Assembly (NCBI GenBank): GCA_019163335.1 | Contig: JAFLKM010000016.1 | Coordinates: forward strand, 1 to 41,721 | Length of the DNA: 41,721 nt | Direction: 5' to 3' | From: Desulfobulbaceae bacterium | GTDB taxonomy: Bacteria; Desulfobacterota; Desulfobulbia; Desulfobulbales; Desulfocapsaceae | Shown here: positions 32,575-39,880 of the stretch, piece by piece | Position numbering within the stretch: the first letter of the stretch is position 1 | Layout: each line of letters begins with the position of its first letter | The notes under the pieces: model-generated | What the model was told of the DNA's origin: nothing | The model's input: only the letters and a program-made list of their open reading frames with translations | Database searches by the model: none | Position numbers and translations under genes: made by a program

Positions 32575-32664
32575 GCTGCTCAACAAAATAATCTGCGGAA
32601 GGCACTAACCCCGTTCATTAAGGGGAGATGTTTTCAGAGCAGCAGTTGCAAAGCAGTAAAAATT

Positions 32665-32752
32665 GTTAGGGGAGCTCGGATAATCCGGGTTGAGAAGTCT
32701 TCAGGCAGACGACCCTTGGCACCCGATCTGGATAATACCAGCGTGGGGAAAC
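32665..32752 (+). promoter_or_regulatory. TPP riboswitch (THI element)
   Basis: The conserved order of the thi box is present: TTAGGGGAGCTCGG at the 5' side, CCGGGTTGAGA, GACCCTTGGCACCCGATC, then CTGGATAATACCAGCG and TGGGGAA closing the first stem. These match the pyrimidine-sensing (CTGAGA-like, here TTGAGA) and pyrophosphate-sensing parts of the thiamine pyrophosphate aptamer. It lies upstream of thiC and is followed by an intrinsic terminator, so high TPP should stop transcription. Confidence 0.93.
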
Positions 32753-32770
32753 AATCACGAACCAATGGTG

Positions 32771-32816: not shown

Positions 32817-34106
32817 ATGAGGATGACACTGATTGAGCAGCTGCGTAATGGCCGGATTCCCCAGGTCGTAAAGGATCTGGCAGGGAAAGAGTCCGTTGCG
32901 TTGGAGGATATGTGTACTAAAATTACCAGTGGCGAGGTGGCGGTTTGCGGAGCGCGAACCGGCAGAGGCACCATGGCCGTCGGTGCCGGAATGCGAACCA
33001 AGGTGAATGCCAATATCGGCGCCTCCACCCTGGTCTCTTCTTCTGAGCAGGAACGCAAGAAACTTGAAGCAGCCCTGAAGGCCGGTACGGATGCGGTTAT
33101 GGATTTGAGTCTTTGCGATAATCTGGTTGAAATTCGGAAAATGGTATTGAATGAATCCACGGTGCCGGTGGGAACCGTTCCCGTCTATGAAGCCGCCACT
33201 GTTGCCAGAATCCGGCGTGGTGCGGTTGTACGTCTGGATGGCGAGGAATTTTTTGATATCATTGAACGTCAGCTCGATGAGGGTGTGGATTTTATTACGG
33301 TGCATACCGGGGTGGTGCGCAGGCTTATGGAAGCCGCTGATCCCGGCAGGCGCATCGAAGGAATTGTGTCCCGGGGTGGAGCGATTACTGCTGCCTACAT
33401 GCGGGTCAGCGGAGAAGAAAATCCCCTCTATGCCCAGTATGATCGCTTGCTTGAGCTGACGGCTAAATACGATGCCGTCCTCAGCCTGGGTGATGGAATG
33501 AGGCCGGGAGCCATCGCTGATGCGGCCGATTATTTTGAAATCAGTGAGCAGGAAATCCTGGGCGAACTTCAACAGCGGGCCCTGGCCCGGGGCGTGATGA
33601 CCATGATCGAAGGGCCGGGCCATGTGCCCCTGCATAAGGTCGGGGCCGCCGTGCAGCGGATTAAGAAACTCACCGCCAATGCCCCGCTGTATCTGCTTGG
33701 CCCCATTGTCACCGATGTCGCTCCCGGCTATGATCATATCACCTCCGCCATTGGAGCCAGTGTTGCCGGGATGCATGGCGCGGATTTTATCTGCTATGTG
33801 ACGCCGGCCGAACATTTGGGCCTGCCGGTGGCTGAGGATGTGTATGAGGGCGTTATCGCCAGCCGGATTGCGGCGCACGTCGCTGATATTGCCAAGGGCC
33901 TGCCCGGTGCAGAGCTCTGGGATCTCGAAATGTCGAAGGCTCGTAAGAATCTGGACTGGGATAAACAGATGGAGCTGGCCCTGGATCCGGTCAAGGCCAT
34001 GCGGATGCGCAGCGAGCGTTCCCAATCGGGGAAATGCTCCATGTGTGGAGAATATTGCGCTTTTGTCGTTCTGGAAGAAACAAGGGAGAAAGATCCGGTG
34101 GTTTGA
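32817..34106 (+). CDS. thiC: Phosphomethylpyrimidine synthase, short anaerobic type
   Basis: Radical SAM enzyme that rearranges aminoimidazole ribotide into the thiamine pyrimidine. 429 aa: the short form without the N-terminal domain of E. coli ThiC. Core motifs include GTVPVYEAA, VDFITVHTGV, EGPGHVPLHK, LGPIVTDVAPGYDHITSAIG and CYVTPAEHLGLP. The cluster Cys are at residues 407, 410 and 414 (CSMCGEYC), spaced CX2CX3C rather than the CX2CX4C of the long form. The paralogous anaerobic 5-hydroxybenzimidazole synthase BzaF is close to this form, but the TPP riboswitch points to thiamine synthesis. Confidence 0.93.
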   Translation: MRMTLIEQLRNGRIPQVVKDLAGKESVALEDMCTKITSGEVAVCGARTGRGTMAVGAGMRTKVNANIGASTLVSSSEQERKKLEAALKAGTDAVMDLSLCDNLVEIRKMVLNESTVPVGTVPVYEAATVARIRRGAVVRLDGEEFFDIIERQLDEGVDFITVHTGVVRRLMEAADPGRRIEGIVSRGGAITAAYMRVSGEENPLYAQYDRLLELTAKYDAVLSLGDGMRPGAIADAADYFEISEQEILGELQQRALARGVMTMIEGPGHVPLHKVGAAVQRIKKLTANAPLYLLGPIVTDVAPGYDHITSAIGASVAGMHGADFICYVTPAEHLGLPVAEDVYEGVIASRIAAHVADIAKGLPGAELWDLEMSKARKNLDWDKQMELALDPVKAMRMRSERSQSGKCSMCGEYCAFVVLEETREKDPVV

Positions 34107-34192
34107 GGGGATCTTTTGCTGAGAAGTTGAAAATTGAACAGGCTGATCGATGAGAAAAAAATCGTATGATCGGCCAGGGAGAAGAGAGATCC

Positions 34193-34588
34193 ATGAATCT
34201 TGAAACATATTTTTCTGAACATACCGGTGTCGGGGTATTGGCCACAAGCGATGCTGCCGGGGTAGTGGATACCGCCATTTACTCAAAACCCCATGTTGAA
34301 GGGGTTGATACCATTGTCTTTATCATGCGTGATCGCCTTACCCACAAAAATCTGCAGGAAAACGGCCATGCCAGTTATCTGTTTCTGGAAGATGGAAGGG
34401 GCTATATTGGTGCTCGTATGTTTTTGACCAAGGTTGATGAGAGTACGGATCAGGAACTGATTGCCTCCATGACCAGGCGCCATTTAAGTCCGGAGGAGGA
34501 CAAGGCCAAGGGAGACAAATTTCTGGTTCGCTTCCGGGTGGGCAAGGTCCTCACTCTGATCGGCGGGGAAGAGGTTGTCCTGCAATGA
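34193..34588 (+). CDS. Pyridoxamine 5'-phosphate oxidase-fold protein
   Basis: 131 aa from the ATG preceded by GGGAGAAGAGAG; the frame is open nine codons earlier. The order GVGVLATSDAAGVVDTAIYSKP, TIVFIMRDRLTHKNLQENGHASYLF and GARMFLTKVD is that of small flavin-binding split-barrel proteins, with the strand that often contacts the FMN phosphate near residues 45-55. Many such proteins bind FMN, others heme or F420; the sequence does not decide. It follows thiC by 86 bases and may share its riboswitch control. Function unknown. Confidence 0.8.
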   Translation: MNLETYFSEHTGVGVLATSDAAGVVDTAIYSKPHVEGVDTIVFIMRDRLTHKNLQENGHASYLFLEDGRGYIGARMFLTKVDESTDQELIASMTRRHLSPEEDKAKGDKFLVRFRVGKVLTLIGGEEVVLQ

Positions 34589-34630
34589 TTCTGTTTGGCA
34601 GAGACAACCAGGAGCAAACCAGGGAACACT

Positions 34631-36091
34631 GTGGAAAATCATGATGTGATCATTGTTGGTGGCGGCATCGGCGGCCTGGTTGCCGGCGGGCTTCTGGCCC
34701 GCAGCGGGGCGCGGGTGCTCCTGCTTGAGCAGGGCGTCCATGTTGGTGGATGTGCCGCCACGTTTTCGCACCGGGGCTATCGGTTTGATGCCGGAGCCAC
34801 CATTGGCTGCGGTTTTCATCCCGGTGGGCCAATGCATTGGCTGGGGGAGCAGCTTGATATTCAGTGGCCGCTGCGTCCTCTCCCGGTGGCCTGGGAGTAT
34901 TGTGATGGGGACGTGTGTCTTCCCCTTGATCCTGCCAGGCACACGCTGCTCCAGCAGTTTCCTGAAAGCAGGGGGTTTTTGCAGGAACAGGCGGAGTTGG
35001 CCGACAGTCTCTGGGAGTTGTCAGAATGCCTGCTTACTCTCTATGGTCAGTGGCGGATGCGGCAGGCCGTTTCCCTTGGCGCCTGTCTTTTGCCAGGGAT
35101 CAAGAATGTCCGGCTCCTCCGTCTTGCTTCGATGACGGTGGCCCAGTGGTTGAAGCGGCATCGGCTGGATGACAATAAGGCCTTCTCTCGTTTCATCGAT
35201 GCCCAATTGCTAATTTCCGCCCAGACTACGGCGGCGAATTGTAATGCCCTCTTTGCGGCCCTTGCTCTGGATCTGCCGAGGCGCTCTCCCTGCGTCTTTG
35301 ATGGCGGCATTGGCACTGTTGCGGAGCTGATCAGTCAGGCCATTGGTAAAAATGGCGGTCAGGTGTGTTGCGGAGAAAAGGTGCAGTCCTTTACCCTCCA
35401 TGGAGAAAGAATCAGCGAGGTTGTCACGGAGAAAGGCAGTTACCGGGCTCAAGAGGTGGTGCTCAACGGTTCTGATATGACCTTGGCCTCGCTTTTGGGA
35501 AAAGAACCCGCTGCGGGTTTTGGGGATGGCCCCGGTCGCGCCGCCTGGAGCGCCTTTATCCTTCATATGGGAGTGGAGAACACCATTATGGCTGAGCGGC
35601 CAGGGGATCATCTGCAACTGCTTCGCCCGGAAAGCATTGGGCTTGCCGAAGGCGACTCCATTTTTATTTCCGCCTCACCGATGACCGACGCAACACGGGC
35701 GCCCAGCGGCAAAAGGGCGATTACCCTCTCCACCCATACAAAAGTTGACCCCTGGTGGCTGGCCTGGAGGCAGAGCCAGGAGGCATATCGGAGTTTAAAG
35801 GCAGAGTACACCGAGAGGGTGCTCAATGTTGCGGAAGGCTATGTGCCCGGGATACGCCAGGGCATGGATCTCTGCCTGGCCGGTTCGCCCGTGACCTATG
35901 CCCGCTATACCGGCCGCCATCTCGGGCTTGTCGGCGGCTACACCCAGACCCAGTTGCGGGCCCCGAAACAGAATTTGTATGGCCTCAAAAACTGTACCCT
36001 GGTGGGAGATTCCTCTTTCCCCGGCCAATCCGTAGCCGGGGTCACGGTTGGAGCGACAATGGCGGTAGACGCGCTGTTGCGCCGGCTGTAG
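34631..36091 (+). CDS. CrtI/CrtISO-like FAD-dependent oxidoreductase
   Basis: 486 aa from GTG, chosen for the AGGGA site just upstream; a TTG 12 codons earlier is possible. The N-terminal dinucleotide-binding motif DVIIVGGGIGGLVAGGLL with acidic residue in LLLEQG, then GGCAATFSHRGYRFDAGAT, is typical of phytoene desaturase, carotenoid isomerase and related amine-oxidase-fold enzymes. The C-terminal FAD motif is NCTLVGDSSFPGQSVAGVTVGA. No phytoene synthase or other carotenoid gene is in the window, so the substrate could be a carotenoid, an apocarotenoid or a quinone-like lipid. Next to a membrane protein and facing the B12 regulator. Confidence 0.85.
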   Translation: MENHDVIIVGGGIGGLVAGGLLARSGARVLLLEQGVHVGGCAATFSHRGYRFDAGATIGCGFHPGGPMHWLGEQLDIQWPLRPLPVAWEYCDGDVCLPLDPARHTLLQQFPESRGFLQEQAELADSLWELSECLLTLYGQWRMRQAVSLGACLLPGIKNVRLLRLASMTVAQWLKRHRLDDNKAFSRFIDAQLLISAQTTAANCNALFAALALDLPRRSPCVFDGGIGTVAELISQAIGKNGGQVCCGEKVQSFTLHGERISEVVTEKGSYRAQEVVLNGSDMTLASLLGKEPAAGFGDGPGRAAWSAFILHMGVENTIMAERPGDHLQLLRPESIGLAEGDSIFISASPMTDATRAPSGKRAITLSTHTKVDPWWLAWRQSQEAYRSLKAEYTERVLNVAEGYVPGIRQGMDLCLAGSPVTYARYTGRHLGLVGGYTQTQLRAPKQNLYGLKNCTLVGDSSFPGQSVAGVTVGATMAVDALLRRL

Positions 36092-36113
36092 GAAAAAAGG
36101 AGCCGATCACTTC

Positions 36114-36539
36114 ATGAACCCCCTGGCTGAACTCCAGACCATTGTTGACAGTGGACTCTTTGTGCTCATCTGGCTTGTTCAGCTGGTTATCTATCCTTCC
36201 TTTGTGGTTATTGAAGAAGAGCATTTTTACTCCTGGCACACCCGCTTCTCTGCCATGATCAGCCTGGTGGTCACGCCGCTGATGGTTATTCAGGTGGGCA
36301 TAGAGGCGGTGGTGATGATGAGTGATATCCGCTGGTGGCGGATAATACCCATCATCCTTATCTGGCTTTCCACCTTCTTTCTTTCCATTCCCTGTCATCG
36401 CAGACTGCACACCGGGGGCAAGGACGCCGCAATAATCCGCAGGCTGGTCTTGACGAACTGGATTCGCACCCTGCTCTGGAGTCTGCTCTTCTGGCAGACA
36501 GGCGCGGCTATTCTGGCCCGCAGCCCTTTTTTTCAATAA
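36114..36539 (+). CDS. Four-helix membrane protein of unknown function
   Basis: 141 aa with four predicted helices. Recognisable blocks are LIWLVQLVIYPSF, FYSWHTRFSAMISLVVTPLMV, LSTFFLSIPCHRRLHTGG and IRRLVLTNWIRTLLWS. From memory, proteins with this block pattern are often found beside photolyase, carotenoid or MerR-B12 genes, but I cannot verify that here. The conserved His in SWHTRF and HRRLH could bind a metal or cofactor; this is a guess. It starts 22 bases after the FAD oxidoreductase gene and ends 19 bases from the convergent MerR-B12 gene. Confidence 0.8.
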   Translation: MNPLAELQTIVDSGLFVLIWLVQLVIYPSFVVIEEEHFYSWHTRFSAMISLVVTPLMVIQVGIEAVVMMSDIRWWRIIPIILIWLSTFFLSIPCHRRLHTGGKDAAIIRRLVLTNWIRTLLWSLLFWQTGAAILARSPFFQ

Positions 36540-36558: not shown

Positions 36559-37536
36559 TTATGCCGTCCCGGCAGACCCAGCTTTTCCAGCCAGCCGCTG
36601 CACATCCTCGGGAATGTGAAAACAGGGGACGCAGAACTCACAGCCGGCCGGATTCAGTGCGTTGTCGGTTTTGCTGATTCCCTGCCCACCAATAAGAAAG
36701 CGTATTTTTTGACGGCCGGCGACAACGGCCAGCTCCTTGCGATATTTTTGATACCGGACCGGATCGCTGACGGACAGCCAGATGCTCTCCGCTCCTGTCT
36801 GCTGGATACTCTCTTCCATGGCCGGCAGAGGCATGGAAGATCCCAGAAACACGACATCCCATCCCTGGCGGGCGAGGGCGTAGGCCACGGTGAGTAGGCC
36901 GATGGTGTGTTCTTCGCCGGGGAAACAGCAGCAGATGGTCACCGGTTTTGCCTTGGAGATGGCAACCTTGGCTGATTGATGGGCCTTCTCCAGGCCATTC
37001 TTCAGGTATTGTTCCACCATGTTGCTGATCAGATGTTCCCCGGCAATGCCCATGGTTCCGGAAAGACAGGCCGCCCCGGTCTGATCCATGGCCCGGGGGA
37101 TGATATCGTACACCACTGTATCCAGGTTGAGTTCCATCTCGGCCTGGGTGAGGGCCGCCTGCAGACGGGGGCCATCAACGCTTTTGGCGGCGGCCACAAG
37201 CTCTTCCTGATGGCGATCCATCCGTGTCGTCGGAACTCCTTCTGTCCTGATGGGCGGGAGGGTTGGGACAGCAAGCGACTCTGTGGCGCGAGCCTCGATG
37301 AGCAGCCTCTCTCTGCCCAAGACCGCCAGTTCACCGATGCGGGCCCCATTTTGTATGGCCCTTGTAAGATAGCGCAGGAGCAACAAGTCGTCCTGCGTGT
37401 AGAGGCGCTGCCGGCCAGATCCGCGAATCGGCGCAAGGAGTTGGTAGCGTTTTTCCCAGGCCCGGAGCAGGTGCGGCGAAATGCCGCACTCCCGTGCCAG
37501 GGTGCCAATCTTGTAGACCTGCATGTCGAGGTTCAT
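36559..37536 (-). CDS. MerR-type regulator with cobalamin-binding domain (CarH/LitR-like)
   Basis: 325 aa. A MerR winged helix covers residues 1-75 (YKIGTLARECGISPHLLRAWEKRY). A helical bundle covers about 105-185 and a Rossmann-like B12 domain about 195-310. The lower-axial cobalamin motif is complete as E208-x-H210-x-x-G213 (PGEEHTIG), and FLIGGQG follows. The helical bundle keeps Glu167-His168 (GIAGEHLIS), but the Trp that caps the adenosyl group in CarH aligns with Cys157 (AACLSGTMG). Family precedent: in the dark the AdoCbl-bound tetramer represses carotenoid and photolyase genes, and light releases it. The start overlaps the methyltransferase stop (TGATG), so the two are co-translated. 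Confidence 0.92.
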   Translation of the reverse strand: MNLDMQVYKIGTLARECGISPHLLRAWEKRYQLLAPIRGSGRQRLYTQDDLLLLRYLTRAIQNGARIGELAVLGRERLLIEARATESLAVPTLPPIRTEGVPTTRMDRHQEELVAAAKSVDGPRLQAALTQAEMELNLDTVVYDIIPRAMDQTGAACLSGTMGIAGEHLISNMVEQYLKNGLEKAHQSAKVAISKAKPVTICCCFPGEEHTIGLLTVAYALARQGWDVVFLGSSMPLPAMEESIQQTGAESIWLSVSDPVRYQKYRKELAVVAGRQKIRFLIGGQGISKTDNALNPAGCEFCVPCFHIPEDVQRLAGKAGSAGTA

Positions 37537-38741
37537 CAGGCTTTCTTCCCCCAGGCCATGAAAACCGGATCGCTCAACAGCAGCTCCTGATGCGGATCAT
37601 CCTCGGGTCTGGGCATTCCGCGTTTACTCATGCTGGCCAGTTCGGTAAACCCGCCGGTCTGGTGAAACATTTCCAGTACCATTCCCAATCGTTCAAACTC
37701 ATGGAGTTCAGCCCAACCCTTGATGGCTTTGGGCGGGAACCAGCGATTGGAAAACGCCAGGGCCAAGACGCCTCCGGGAACAAGAACCCGCTGTATTTCA
37801 GCAAAGATGGCCAGCGGGTCGGTCAGGTATTCCACCGAGGCGGTACAGATGACCGCATCCATGCTGTTGTCGGCCAAAGGGATCACCGGGGCGTGGTTGA
37901 GATCATGGAGTATTGTCGCGCTTGCTCTTTTATTGGCGGCGAGCTCAGCCTCGTTCATCCCGAGGACGGTGAGTGCCTTCAAGGATAGCTGTTCCGGAAG
38001 ATGGGAATCCCAGCTGCCCATGAGGTCGAGCACCCTGGCCCCCGGGGTGATGAGTCGTTGGTATTGCCTGCGGATTGCGGCTCTGGCGGCTGAGTCCAGG
38101 TGCTGAACCATGCGTGGCGCTCCATAAAACAGCTGGTCGGGACTCTCGTCTTGCCGCTGTCGGCCTTCGGCGCTGAAAAAATCGGTGGCGACATTCTGGT
38201 AGCGGGCCTGCATGCCGGGGCCATTTTCACAGATCAGGGCCAGCCAGTCCTCGCAGCGGCCGCCCCGCTCCACCCCCGATTTGTGGATCTCGATGACTTT
38301 TGCGCGCAGAGAAAGATCGTGTCCCGCCAAAGGATGATTGAGATCAAAGCGCAGCTTCTCATCTTGGGCAACACATCGGGCCGGTGCCGTTGAAACCTCG
38401 AAGACATTGCTGACCCCGTGCAGAAAACCCTGCGGATAGAAGCGGCCTGCATGGGGTACGAGCATTGTAGCCGGATTGGTCGGGGCGTAAAATTGCTGGG
38501 GGCGGATTTCCACCAGTTTATTTTGAAGATACAGGGCAGGGGAGACATTGGCCGGAACCGCTGCCTGCGCCTCTTCTCCCTCGCCTTTGTCGTTCAGGGC
38601 AGCGGCCAGTCCAGGGACAAAACAGTCACGCCACATGTTGACCTGATCCGTCCACAGGCTGTCCTGATGGTGCACCCCGTTGCTTTGCCAGTCCAGCGTA
38701 AACTCAATGGTGGCGCGGCTGTAGCCGTTTATTTTTTCCAT
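37536..38741 (-). CDS. FKBP/SlyD-like domain fused to SAM-dependent methyltransferase
   Basis: 401 aa; GGAGG lies 8 bases before the ATG. The first 155 residues resemble an FKBP-type prolyl isomerase of the SlyD kind: RATIEFTLDWQSNG, WRDCFVPGLAAAL and RFDLNHPLAGHDLSLRAKVIEI, with an insertion between. The C-terminal half (about 210-401) is a class I methyltransferase with an atypical motif I, ARVLDLMGSWDSHLP, instead of a GxGxG loop, then VICTASVEYLTDP and RVLVPGGVLALAFSNRWFP. The methylated substrate is unknown. The isomerase part may help bind a protein or only be structural; most FKBP active-site aromatics are not evident. First gene of the pair with the MerR-B12 regulator. Confidence 0.82.
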   Translation of the reverse strand: MEKINGYSRATIEFTLDWQSNGVHHQDSLWTDQVNMWRDCFVPGLAAALNDKGEGEEAQAAVPANVSPALYLQNKLVEIRPQQFYAPTNPATMLVPHAGRFYPQGFLHGVSNVFEVSTAPARCVAQDEKLRFDLNHPLAGHDLSLRAKVIEIHKSGVERGGRCEDWLALICENGPGMQARYQNVATDFFSAEGRQRQDESPDQLFYGAPRMVQHLDSAARAAIRRQYQRLITPGARVLDLMGSWDSHLPEQLSLKALTVLGMNEAELAANKRASATILHDLNHAPVIPLADNSMDAVICTASVEYLTDPLAIFAEIQRVLVPGGVLALAFSNRWFPPKAIKGWAELHEFERLGMVLEMFHQTGGFTELASMSKRGMPRPEDDPHQELLLSDPVFMAWGKKA

Positions 38742-38896
38742 GGTCGTTCCTCCGGGTCGCAAGATGAATTGTTCATGTTAAGAAGTGTCTATCTGTTGTT
38801 GATATATTTAAATCGAAATAGCGAAAAATCAATCAATAATATAGACAAAACATTAACAATCAACCCGCTCCCGGGGATTCGCCTGGAAAGGAATTA

Positions 38897-39880
38897 TTAC
38901 ATCTTCTCCTTGAGTTCCTTTACTGCCTTCATGGTGGTGTTGATCTTGTAAAAATCATACCAGGTTTCATTCTCAACGGGGAGATTGAGGTTGCTGCCGT
39001 ACACCCGCCAGCCGTCATGGTAAATGGCAACGTCTTCATAGCCCAGTGCCCTGAGAGCCAGGTAGGAGTAGGCCGCCCGCTGGCCGGTCTGGCAATGGGT
39101 GATGACCCGGCTCTCGGCAGGAATGTCCTTGTATAGCAATTTCAGATCTGCGAGGGGGAGCATGCGAAACGATGTGGCGTTGAAGTTTTTGAAAAAGTCG
39201 ATGTTCACCGCCGTGGGCATGTGGCCTCCTCGCAGGGCACGAATGTCCGTCCCTTGATACTCGCCAGCCGTTCGCACATCAATGATGATGGCCTTCTTCT
39301 TACCTTCAATCACCTGCATCAGCTCGTCGGTTTTCACGCCTCTTTTCGCCTCGGGTATTGCTTTGAACGTGGTTGCCATGGTTTTTGTAGCGGTCGTATC
39401 GAGGCTTCCTCCTTCTGTCTGCCAGCCCTCTATCCCGCTGTCATAAAACTGCACCGTACATTTAGCAAGTGAGCTGTTACATCCCATGGTTTCAAGGGCC
39501 CAGAACATTACCGCATTCCACGTTGTTCTGCCCACGGCCCCATAGAGGATGATATGGCTTTCGTTGCTGATCCCCATGGTGCCAAGCTCTTTTTCAAGGC
39601 GGGGGAGTAACGTCTCGGAGCGTTTTGTGTCTTCGGCATAGAGGGTGGATATCCAACCCGGCATAAGCACCGCCCCTGGAATATGCCCCTCCGCATATTC
39701 ATCGGGAAATCGCATGTCCATGCAAACCCAGCCCGGTTTGCTGATCTTGTCCTTGAGGAACACGTGGTCGACGATAAGCTCTGACCCGCTTGCGGCAAAG
39801 AGTGCCGGGGAATAGCAACAGCAGAGGAGCAACCCCGCAAGGATGGTTTTGAACAGGTATTTTACGTGCTTGATATTCAT
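38897..39880 (-). CDS. Exported double-rhodanese sulfurtransferase
   Basis: 327 aa with a Sec signal peptide (AGLLLCCCYSPALFA, cleavage near residue 29) and an AAAGGAG-like AGGAG site. Two rhodanese domains follow. The first (about 35-160) has the structural motif DMRFPDEYAEGHIPGA, but its active-site loop reads GAVGRTTW (114-121) without Cys. The second (about 180-310) has DVRTAGEYQG and the active loop HCQTGQRA with Cys263. This inactive-N, active-C layout is the classic rhodanese/TST plan. A periplasmic role in thiosulfate, polysulfide or sulfane transfer is likely in a sulfur-metabolising host, but the donor is unknown. Confidence 0.92.
   Translation of the reverse strand: MNIKHVKYLFKTILAGLLLCCCYSPALFAASGSELIVDHVFLKDKISKPGWVCMDMRFPDEYAEGHIPGAVLMPGWISTLYAEDTKRSETLLPRLEKELGTMGISNESHIILYGAVGRTTWNAVMFWALETMGCNSSLAKCTVQFYDSGIEGWQTEGGSLDTTATKTMATTFKAIPEAKRGVKTDELMQVIEGKKKAIIIDVRTAGEYQGTDIRALRGGHMPTAVNIDFFKNFNATSFRMLPLADLKLLYKDIPAESRVITHCQTGQRAAYSYLALRALGYEDVAIYHDGWRVYGSNLNLPVENETWYDFYKINTTMKAVKELKEKM

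Follow-up and report, generated by a model that had tools for sequence, protein, structure and literature searches.

The gene at positions 36559..37536 (minus strand, stop codon included) of the window, the whole stretch of 41,721 nucleotides analysed here, encodes a MerR-B12 (CarH-like) regulator of 325 amino acids in which the tryptophan that caps the adenosyl group in CarH is replaced by Cys157. We give about an even chance to the interpretation that this protein is a CarH-family autorepressor which has kept its cobalamin site while the adenosyl capping, and probably the light gating, has been relaxed, in parallel to myxobacterial CarA. The Wx9EH tryptophan has been taken to identify a CarH photoreceptor. 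Orthologues with Trp, Tyr, Asn or Cys at this one site, sharing operator and operon type, constitute a natural series on the role of this residue, which could separate its contributions to AdoCbl choice, oligomer assembly and light gating.

Overall architecture of the regulator

The translation of the frame 36559-37536 (minus strand) is AACLSGTMGIAGEHL. Pfam assigns an N-terminal MerR DNA-binding domain (PF13411, MerR_1, 2.7e-13; PF00376, 5.5e-10), as in CarH, followed by a B12-binding domain (2.4e-9). The NCBIfam CarH model (NF052513, equivalog) matches with 5.6e-27 and 94.7 bits and thus stays below the curated cut-off of 400 bits, a test that says little here because none of the 257 genomes of the order or the 395 of the phylum, nor a Thermus control genome, passes it. 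The AlphaFold model (mean pLDDT 79.5, pTM 0.60) depicts the four-helix bundle and Rossmann cobalamin fold of CarH, and its best structural match (residues 105-312) is the cobalamin domain of TtCarH with a Z score of 21.3 and an rmsd of 2.4 over 194 residues. Domains, HMMER alignment against the PDB and predicted fold thereby confirm the CarH/LitR-type assignment made in an earlier sequence-only reading. A second full-length MerR-B12 protein was not found in the genome.

The cobalamin site and residue 157

In the available parts of the papers cited here and below, CarH is defined by a Wx9EH motif together with the B12 motif D/ExHx2G/P-x41-SxT/V-x22-27-GG (PMC8156234), the Wx9EH criterion being used in PMC9304148 as well, and light-responsive cobalamin-binding domains carry the signature GxxW/EH/GxxH/GxxxP (PMC11796333). 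The HMMER alignment pairs the segment G-A-A-C-L-S-G of the regulator gap-free with G-E-A-W-H-R-G of Thermus thermophilus CarH/LitR; further along, GEHL of the regulator lies opposite EEHL and PGEEHTIG opposite PGERHEIG, both in register. This places Cys157 (codon TGT, 37066..37068, minus strand) at the site of TtCarH Trp131, as had been claimed, Leu158 at His132, Glu167-His168 at Glu141-His142 and His210 at the ligand His177. The Glu167-His168 pair (37033..37038, minus strand), which lies just outside the interval 37045-37100 marked previously, is invariant in all 10 rows of alignment A1, and the lower cobalt-ligand motif (36898..36915, minus strand) reads E208-E-H210-T-I-G213, so that both elements are indeed intact.

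With C157-x9-EH in place of Wx9EH the regulator is not a CarH by the published definition, and residues 154-157 read GAAC where the light-responsive signature has GxxW. The other elements of that signature are present as E167H168, G207EEH210 and G232SSMP236. The B12 motif runs as E208EHTIG213, 41 residues, S255-V-S257, 25 residues and G283G284, with Ser257 where Thr or Val is specified and Thr is found in the A1 orthologues. EH, ligand His, G232xxxP236 and GG are thus kept in A1, and the regulator departs at two sites that are at least 90% conserved among the A1 orthologues, with Thr for Arg211 and the said Ser for Thr257. As read from the alignment, the R176-D201 salt-bridge pair of TtCarH corresponds to E209-S234, for which reason the oligomerisation of the regulator may differ altogether from that of TtCarH.

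A shifted alignment that would restore a tryptophan at this site was sought and rejected: Trp27 belongs to the DNA-binding domain, Trp226 is not conserved, and Trp253 is found in 11 of 11 orthologues irrespective of the residue at site 157. Two other cysteines are conserved independently of the residue at site 157. Cys204 (Cys202-Cys204, 36925-36933), in front of the ligand motif and replaced by Thr in Thermus CarH, is kept in all 11 orthologues, and Cys299 (36640-36642), behind the GG motif, in all 10 that reach that far; judged by this pattern they would be better candidates than Cys157 for a conserved thiol function. Residues 134, 169, 177, 181 and 237 differ between W-bearing and W-less proteins in step with the Trp, for instance Met to Leu at 169 beside EH and Phe to Leu at 237 beside Pro236, which may reflect compensation or mere lineage difference.

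In TtCarH, Trp131 stacks on the adenosine in steric contact and favours the dark oligomer (PMC10442372, PMC8221060); it is reported to be crucial to AdoCbl-dependent assembly (PMC8156234, PMC8221060). His132 forms the bis-His ligation of the light state, a site occupied by Arg in the working photoreceptor CtMerR (PMC11796333). Since the His210 ligand and the Glu167-His168 cap are retained, the regulator probably still binds cobalamin in the base-off/His-on mode. With no aromatic residue on the adenosine and Leu158 at the His132 site, assembly should become less strictly AdoCbl-dependent and switching by light should be weaker or lost; CarA has gone the same way. The expectation of the sequence-only reading that loss of the Trp weakens adenosyl selectivity and light gating therefore agrees with the published criteria, while the special role it gave to the cysteine is not supported.

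The chief rival is that the regulator is still an AdoCbl-dependent photoreceptor whose Trp site tolerates substitution, Tyr, Asn or Cys together with EH and Pro236 being enough to hold the adenosine. We regard this as possible, though a good deal less probable than relaxed capping. The retained EH, ligand His and GxxxP speak for it, and Leu at the His132 site does not speak against it, given that CtMerR works with Arg there (PMC11796333). The reported importance of the Trp for AdoCbl-dependent assembly (PMC8156234, PMC8221060) argues against it, as does the inability of Asn and Cys to stack on adenine.

Residue 157 among relatives

Searches covered 257 genomes of the order (the class search likewise covered 257) and 395 of the phylum and yielded few full-length relatives. 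Thirty-three proteins were compared at the site, namely 11 orthologues, 10 others from the phylum and 12 from plasmid records; the latter were drawn from 26 records, leaving out Klebsiella, Cronobacter and most near-identical Thermus records. The orthologue profile at E 1e-30 is matched by 11 of the 257 genomes of the order: the window's own, G146, G149, G156 and G160 from one other genus of the same family, and G230, G234, G241, G242, G244 and G245 from another family. Site 157 is Tyr in G146, G149, G160 and G230, Asn in G156, Cys in the window and Trp in G234, G241, G242, G244 and G245, hence Trp in five orthologues and another residue in six. Among the 22 non-orthologues, a set that includes near relatives such as two Thermus proteins, all 20 with intact EH and ligand His have Trp, which again weighs against a tolerant site in a retained photoreceptor; in the remaining two, L107 and L119, from which EH or the ligand His is missing, the site is occupied by Ser and Val.

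The alignment of MerR-B12 regulators that had been proposed as a check thus finds Cys, among the 33 proteins compared, only in the window protein and the W-less state to be common to six orthologues. The codons at the site are TGT (Cys), TAT or TAC (Tyr), AAT (Asn) and TGG (Trp). A single base separates TGT from TGG and likewise from TAT, and a codon that goes from TGG to TAT in two steps has to pass through Cys or a stop. Cys157 may be a retained intermediate, may have replaced an earlier Tyr or may mark an independent loss; under none of these three scenarios is it conserved.

These data bear directly on the proposal that Cys157 acts as a ligand or gate at the upper face of cobalamin (thiolato- or methyl-cobalamin) and is a sensor of thiol or sulfide. 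A thiol in this position might in principle coordinate the cobalt, and a rhodanese gene (38897-39880, Pfam) lies upstream of the operon, with an open reading frame containing a rhodanese domain (recognised by eye) near the G230 copy. The Cys is found in one of 11 orthologues at a codon a single step from Trp and Tyr, and the window rhodanese is matched only in G003 among the 12 loci compared. As the Trp site is varied in this small branch, with Tyr and Asn relatives, the window protein looks like one of several members without Trp and not like a purpose-built cysteine sensor; the dedicated thiol or sulfide sensor of the sequence-only reading finds no support, and we consider it very improbable. 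On the other hand, light sensing could persist in the branch because the Tyr of four relatives could still stack on adenine; this leaves room for the chief rival.

Phylogeny, selection and possible gene decay

In a maximum-likelihood tree of 29 rows (four of the 33 dropped; CarA is not part of it) the six W-less proteins form one group with a single change at the site (support 80/37), and one change is found in 82% of 200 bootstrap trees. The five W-less proteins without the window's own group with a support of 96/93. Owing to the weak placement of the window protein with these five (80/37), two separate losses of the Trp are possible. The G230 copy, which is truncated, groups with the W-less proteins although its genome belongs to the other family.

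The dN/dS values of the W-less pairs G146-G156 and G149-G160 are 0.15-0.21 (0.20 and 0.15 over the cobalamin domain), and those of the W-bearing pairs G244-G245 and G242-G245 are 0.24-0.39 (0.39 and 0.26 over the cobalamin domain). From the former values it follows that the testable W-less genes are maintained under purifying selection, a result that covers the W-less relatives only, as the window gene has no near relative and its dS is saturated. Within the genus of the window, the locus occurs in 2 of 17 genomes, several of them incomplete, and the gene is intact only in the window's genome. The second genome, G003, has neighbours that are 83-93% identical and a regulator reduced to residues 1-35 and about 214-287, for which an assembly error is possible. 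In this genome (L073:9468-9802) the promoter repeats and the methyltransferase gene are kept, and both the regulator and the convergent membrane-protein gene are in fragments.

Such decay raises the alternative that the window gene is drifting towards loss, with Cys157 as one of several relaxed changes. The sparse occurrence in the genus, the G003 remnant without the middle of the gene, the truncated G230 copy and the departures at Arg211 and Thr257 are consistent with it. Yet the frame is full-length, the DNA-binding, EH and ligand residues, the operator and the overlapping start and stop codons are kept, and the W-less relatives are under purifying selection, so that we judge drift unlikely.

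Operon and putative operators

The first gene of the operon (37536..38762, minus strand) encodes a fusion of 408 amino acids of a SlyD-like FKBP domain and a SAM methyltransferase (Methyltransf_11, 1.2e-10); SlyD structures match residues 47-163 (8.2e-6), N-terminal to the methyltransferase domain. Its TGA overlaps the ATG of the regulator gene (TGATG). The methyltransferase adjoins the regulator in the nine fetched loci L065-L073, of which L073 holds the regulator remnant, and none was seen within 6 kb around the G230 copy.

The CarH operator is a tandem array of 11-bp direct repeats of the form nAnnTnnACAn, with three copies in Thermus and four copies in Bacillus megaterium (PMC8156234). A pattern search identifies two putative operators of this type in the window, each with two tandem 11-bp repeats, at 38785..38806 (minus strand) and 38838..38859 (plus strand); the repeats thus agree in sequence with CarH operators and occur as pairs instead of three or four in a row. 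The second one overlaps a promoter-like TTGATT-16-TATTAT directed towards the operon (38836..38863, minus strand), which is a match to the consensus only, two such sites being found in 261 bp with 0.6 expected. The exact repeat pair has two matches in the 41.7-kb window, both within the 134 bp between the methyltransferase and rhodanese genes, and two or more matches occur in 0 of 100 shuffles of the window. With one mismatch allowed there are three matches versus 1.45 expected, so the pattern is not rare.

A repeat pair is located upstream of the methyltransferase in 10 of 10 loci compared (window, G003 and eight others). Fifteen of the 16 pair matches in the ten sources (about 187 kb) fall within these promoters (about 2.4 kb); one triple accounts for two of the 15, which overlap, and per promoter 0-2 of 300 shuffles reach the observed pair count. 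Because the ten promoters, among which G241 (contig starting inside the gene) and G230 are not included, are homologous, this shows conservation of the repeats and not ten independent events. The window has one pair on each strand, as for one of the three pairs of G160, and the other relatives have theirs on a single strand. G003 keeps one repeat pair despite its broken regulator. The G230 stretch contains no strong repeat pair, its best matrix score being 10.4 versus 19-30 for the promoter sites. Genome-wide, the exact pair pattern has 12 matches versus five for the reversed pattern; ten of the 12 are outside the window, six of them within open frames and the other four between ordinary-looking genes (open-reading-frame listing, by eye). 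Most of these ten are taken as chance matches, and a regulon drawn from the genome-wide pattern was set aside.

The new element here is the presence of putative CarH-type operators upstream of the regulator's own operon, in the window and nine relatives. Most likely, the MerR domain would bind the pairs of 11-bp repeats that cover the promoter of the operon for FKBP-methyltransferase and regulator, and the bound regulator would most likely block its transcription. Operators of this type also speak for a retained photoreceptor. They also enter a more far-reaching proposal, of a W-less subfamily with a re-purposed cap, in which the Tyr members are AdoCbl photoreceptors of altered colour or kinetics and Cys157 is a redox-dependent upper cobalt ligand that creates a thiol- or sulfide-gated switch at an unchanged CarH-type operator; this we hold to be highly doubtful.

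Genomic surroundings

Convergent to the operon (34166..36539, plus strand) are genes for a PNPOx-like protein, a CrtD/CrtI-type FAD oxidoreductase and a membrane protein of 141 amino acids (Pfam, NCBIfam), and relatives of some of them recur near the regulator in other genomes. Further away, a TPP riboswitch (32658-32766, plus strand) lies upstream of thiC (32817-34106); at the gathering threshold the window has no other match to Rfam.

Pfam, run on the named neighbour copies only, with other copies recognised by eye or tblastn, identifies near the regulators of relatives a photolyase and a DCC oxidoreductase (L065), a 2-thiouracil-desulfurase/DUF1722 protein together with LigB and DUF1499 proteins (L066), a pyrimidine-dimer glycosylase (L072) and a UvdE endonuclease (L103); a DUF1731 epimerase is also found near the regulator in relatives. 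The UV-repair genes in this company fit a light or UV setting and favour a retained photoreceptor; none is present in the window's own neighbourhood. Genome-wide, photolyase is present in 3 of the 11 genomes with the regulator versus 51 of the other 246, which is no clear enrichment and tells against that rival. The photolyase gene of the window's genome, on another contig (C10) and followed by an open reading frame resembling a DUF1731 epimerase (by eye), is not supported as a direct target, the best score of a matrix scan over 15 kb around it being 11.7 versus 19-30 for the promoter sites.

The phytoene synthase family is found in 0 of 18 chosen genomes, with 7 of 14 control genomes positive, and on this absence a carotenoid regulon was rejected as the target despite the adjoining CrtD/CrtI-type FAD oxidoreductase. 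AdoCbl should be available to the host because a CobO-type cobalamin adenosyltransferase is encoded in 10 of 10 chosen genomes, a point that counts for relaxed capping, the interpretation we prefer, as well as for AdoCbl-dependent light sensing. The operator and part of the neighbourhood still resemble those of a CarH or light-damage setting.

Two further loci of the same genome encode stand-alone cobalamin domains. At L002:1396-3388 (C61) such a domain, with GxxW...EH...ExHxxG...GxxxP and thus an intact Trp (by eye), directly precedes a heme-oxygenase gene (PF01126), and the pair is a candidate B12-plus-bilin light sensor. At L004:1372-3432 (C29) a domain with Trp comes immediately before a histidine kinase that has an Hpt domain, which makes this locus a candidate for a cobalamin-dependent sensor kinase.

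Comparison with known systems

Among the literature matches listed (titles and beginnings of abstracts, with most subscription papers outside the coverage) there was no paper on W-less CarH proteins of this lineage. The two-part cobalamin fold of the regulator is like that of photocobilins, AerR and the methylamine corrinoid proteins, which lack a MerR domain. CtMerR of Chloracidobacterium thermophilum (8JBS) is closer, being a MerR-B12 protein with EH, without His at the His132 site and with a similar fold (Z 18.3), but it keeps its Trp156 and is light-responsive (PMC11796333).

With CarH/LitR of Thermus thermophilus (5C8D, 3WHP) the regulator shares the MerR domain, the four-helix bundle and Rossmann B12 domain, EH, ExHxxG and GG as well as, by sequence, an operator of 11-bp direct repeats that covers the promoter. 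It is the same MerR-B12 kind of protein and seems to act through an operator of the CarH type, whereas the capping Trp and the salt-bridge pair are lost, Leu replaces His132, and the operon encodes an FKBP-methyltransferase, phytoene synthase not being found in the genome.

CarA of Myxococcus xanthus binds B12 but acts independently of it; it is without the Trp, keeps EH and the B12 motif (PMC9304148, PMC8156234) and has additionally lost four flanking residues (PMC9304148). CarA belongs to another lineage, adjoins a CarH paralogue and is relieved by CarS, and a repressor role like that of CarA is expected for the regulator. The branch described here, in whose tested genomes phytoene synthase was not found, could represent a second, independent route besides CarA from a B12 photoreceptor to a B12-independent repressor. 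Compared with the published description of CarA only (PMC9304148, available part), the regulator resembles it both in what is lost, the Wx9EH Trp, and in what is retained, EH and the B12-ligand motif.
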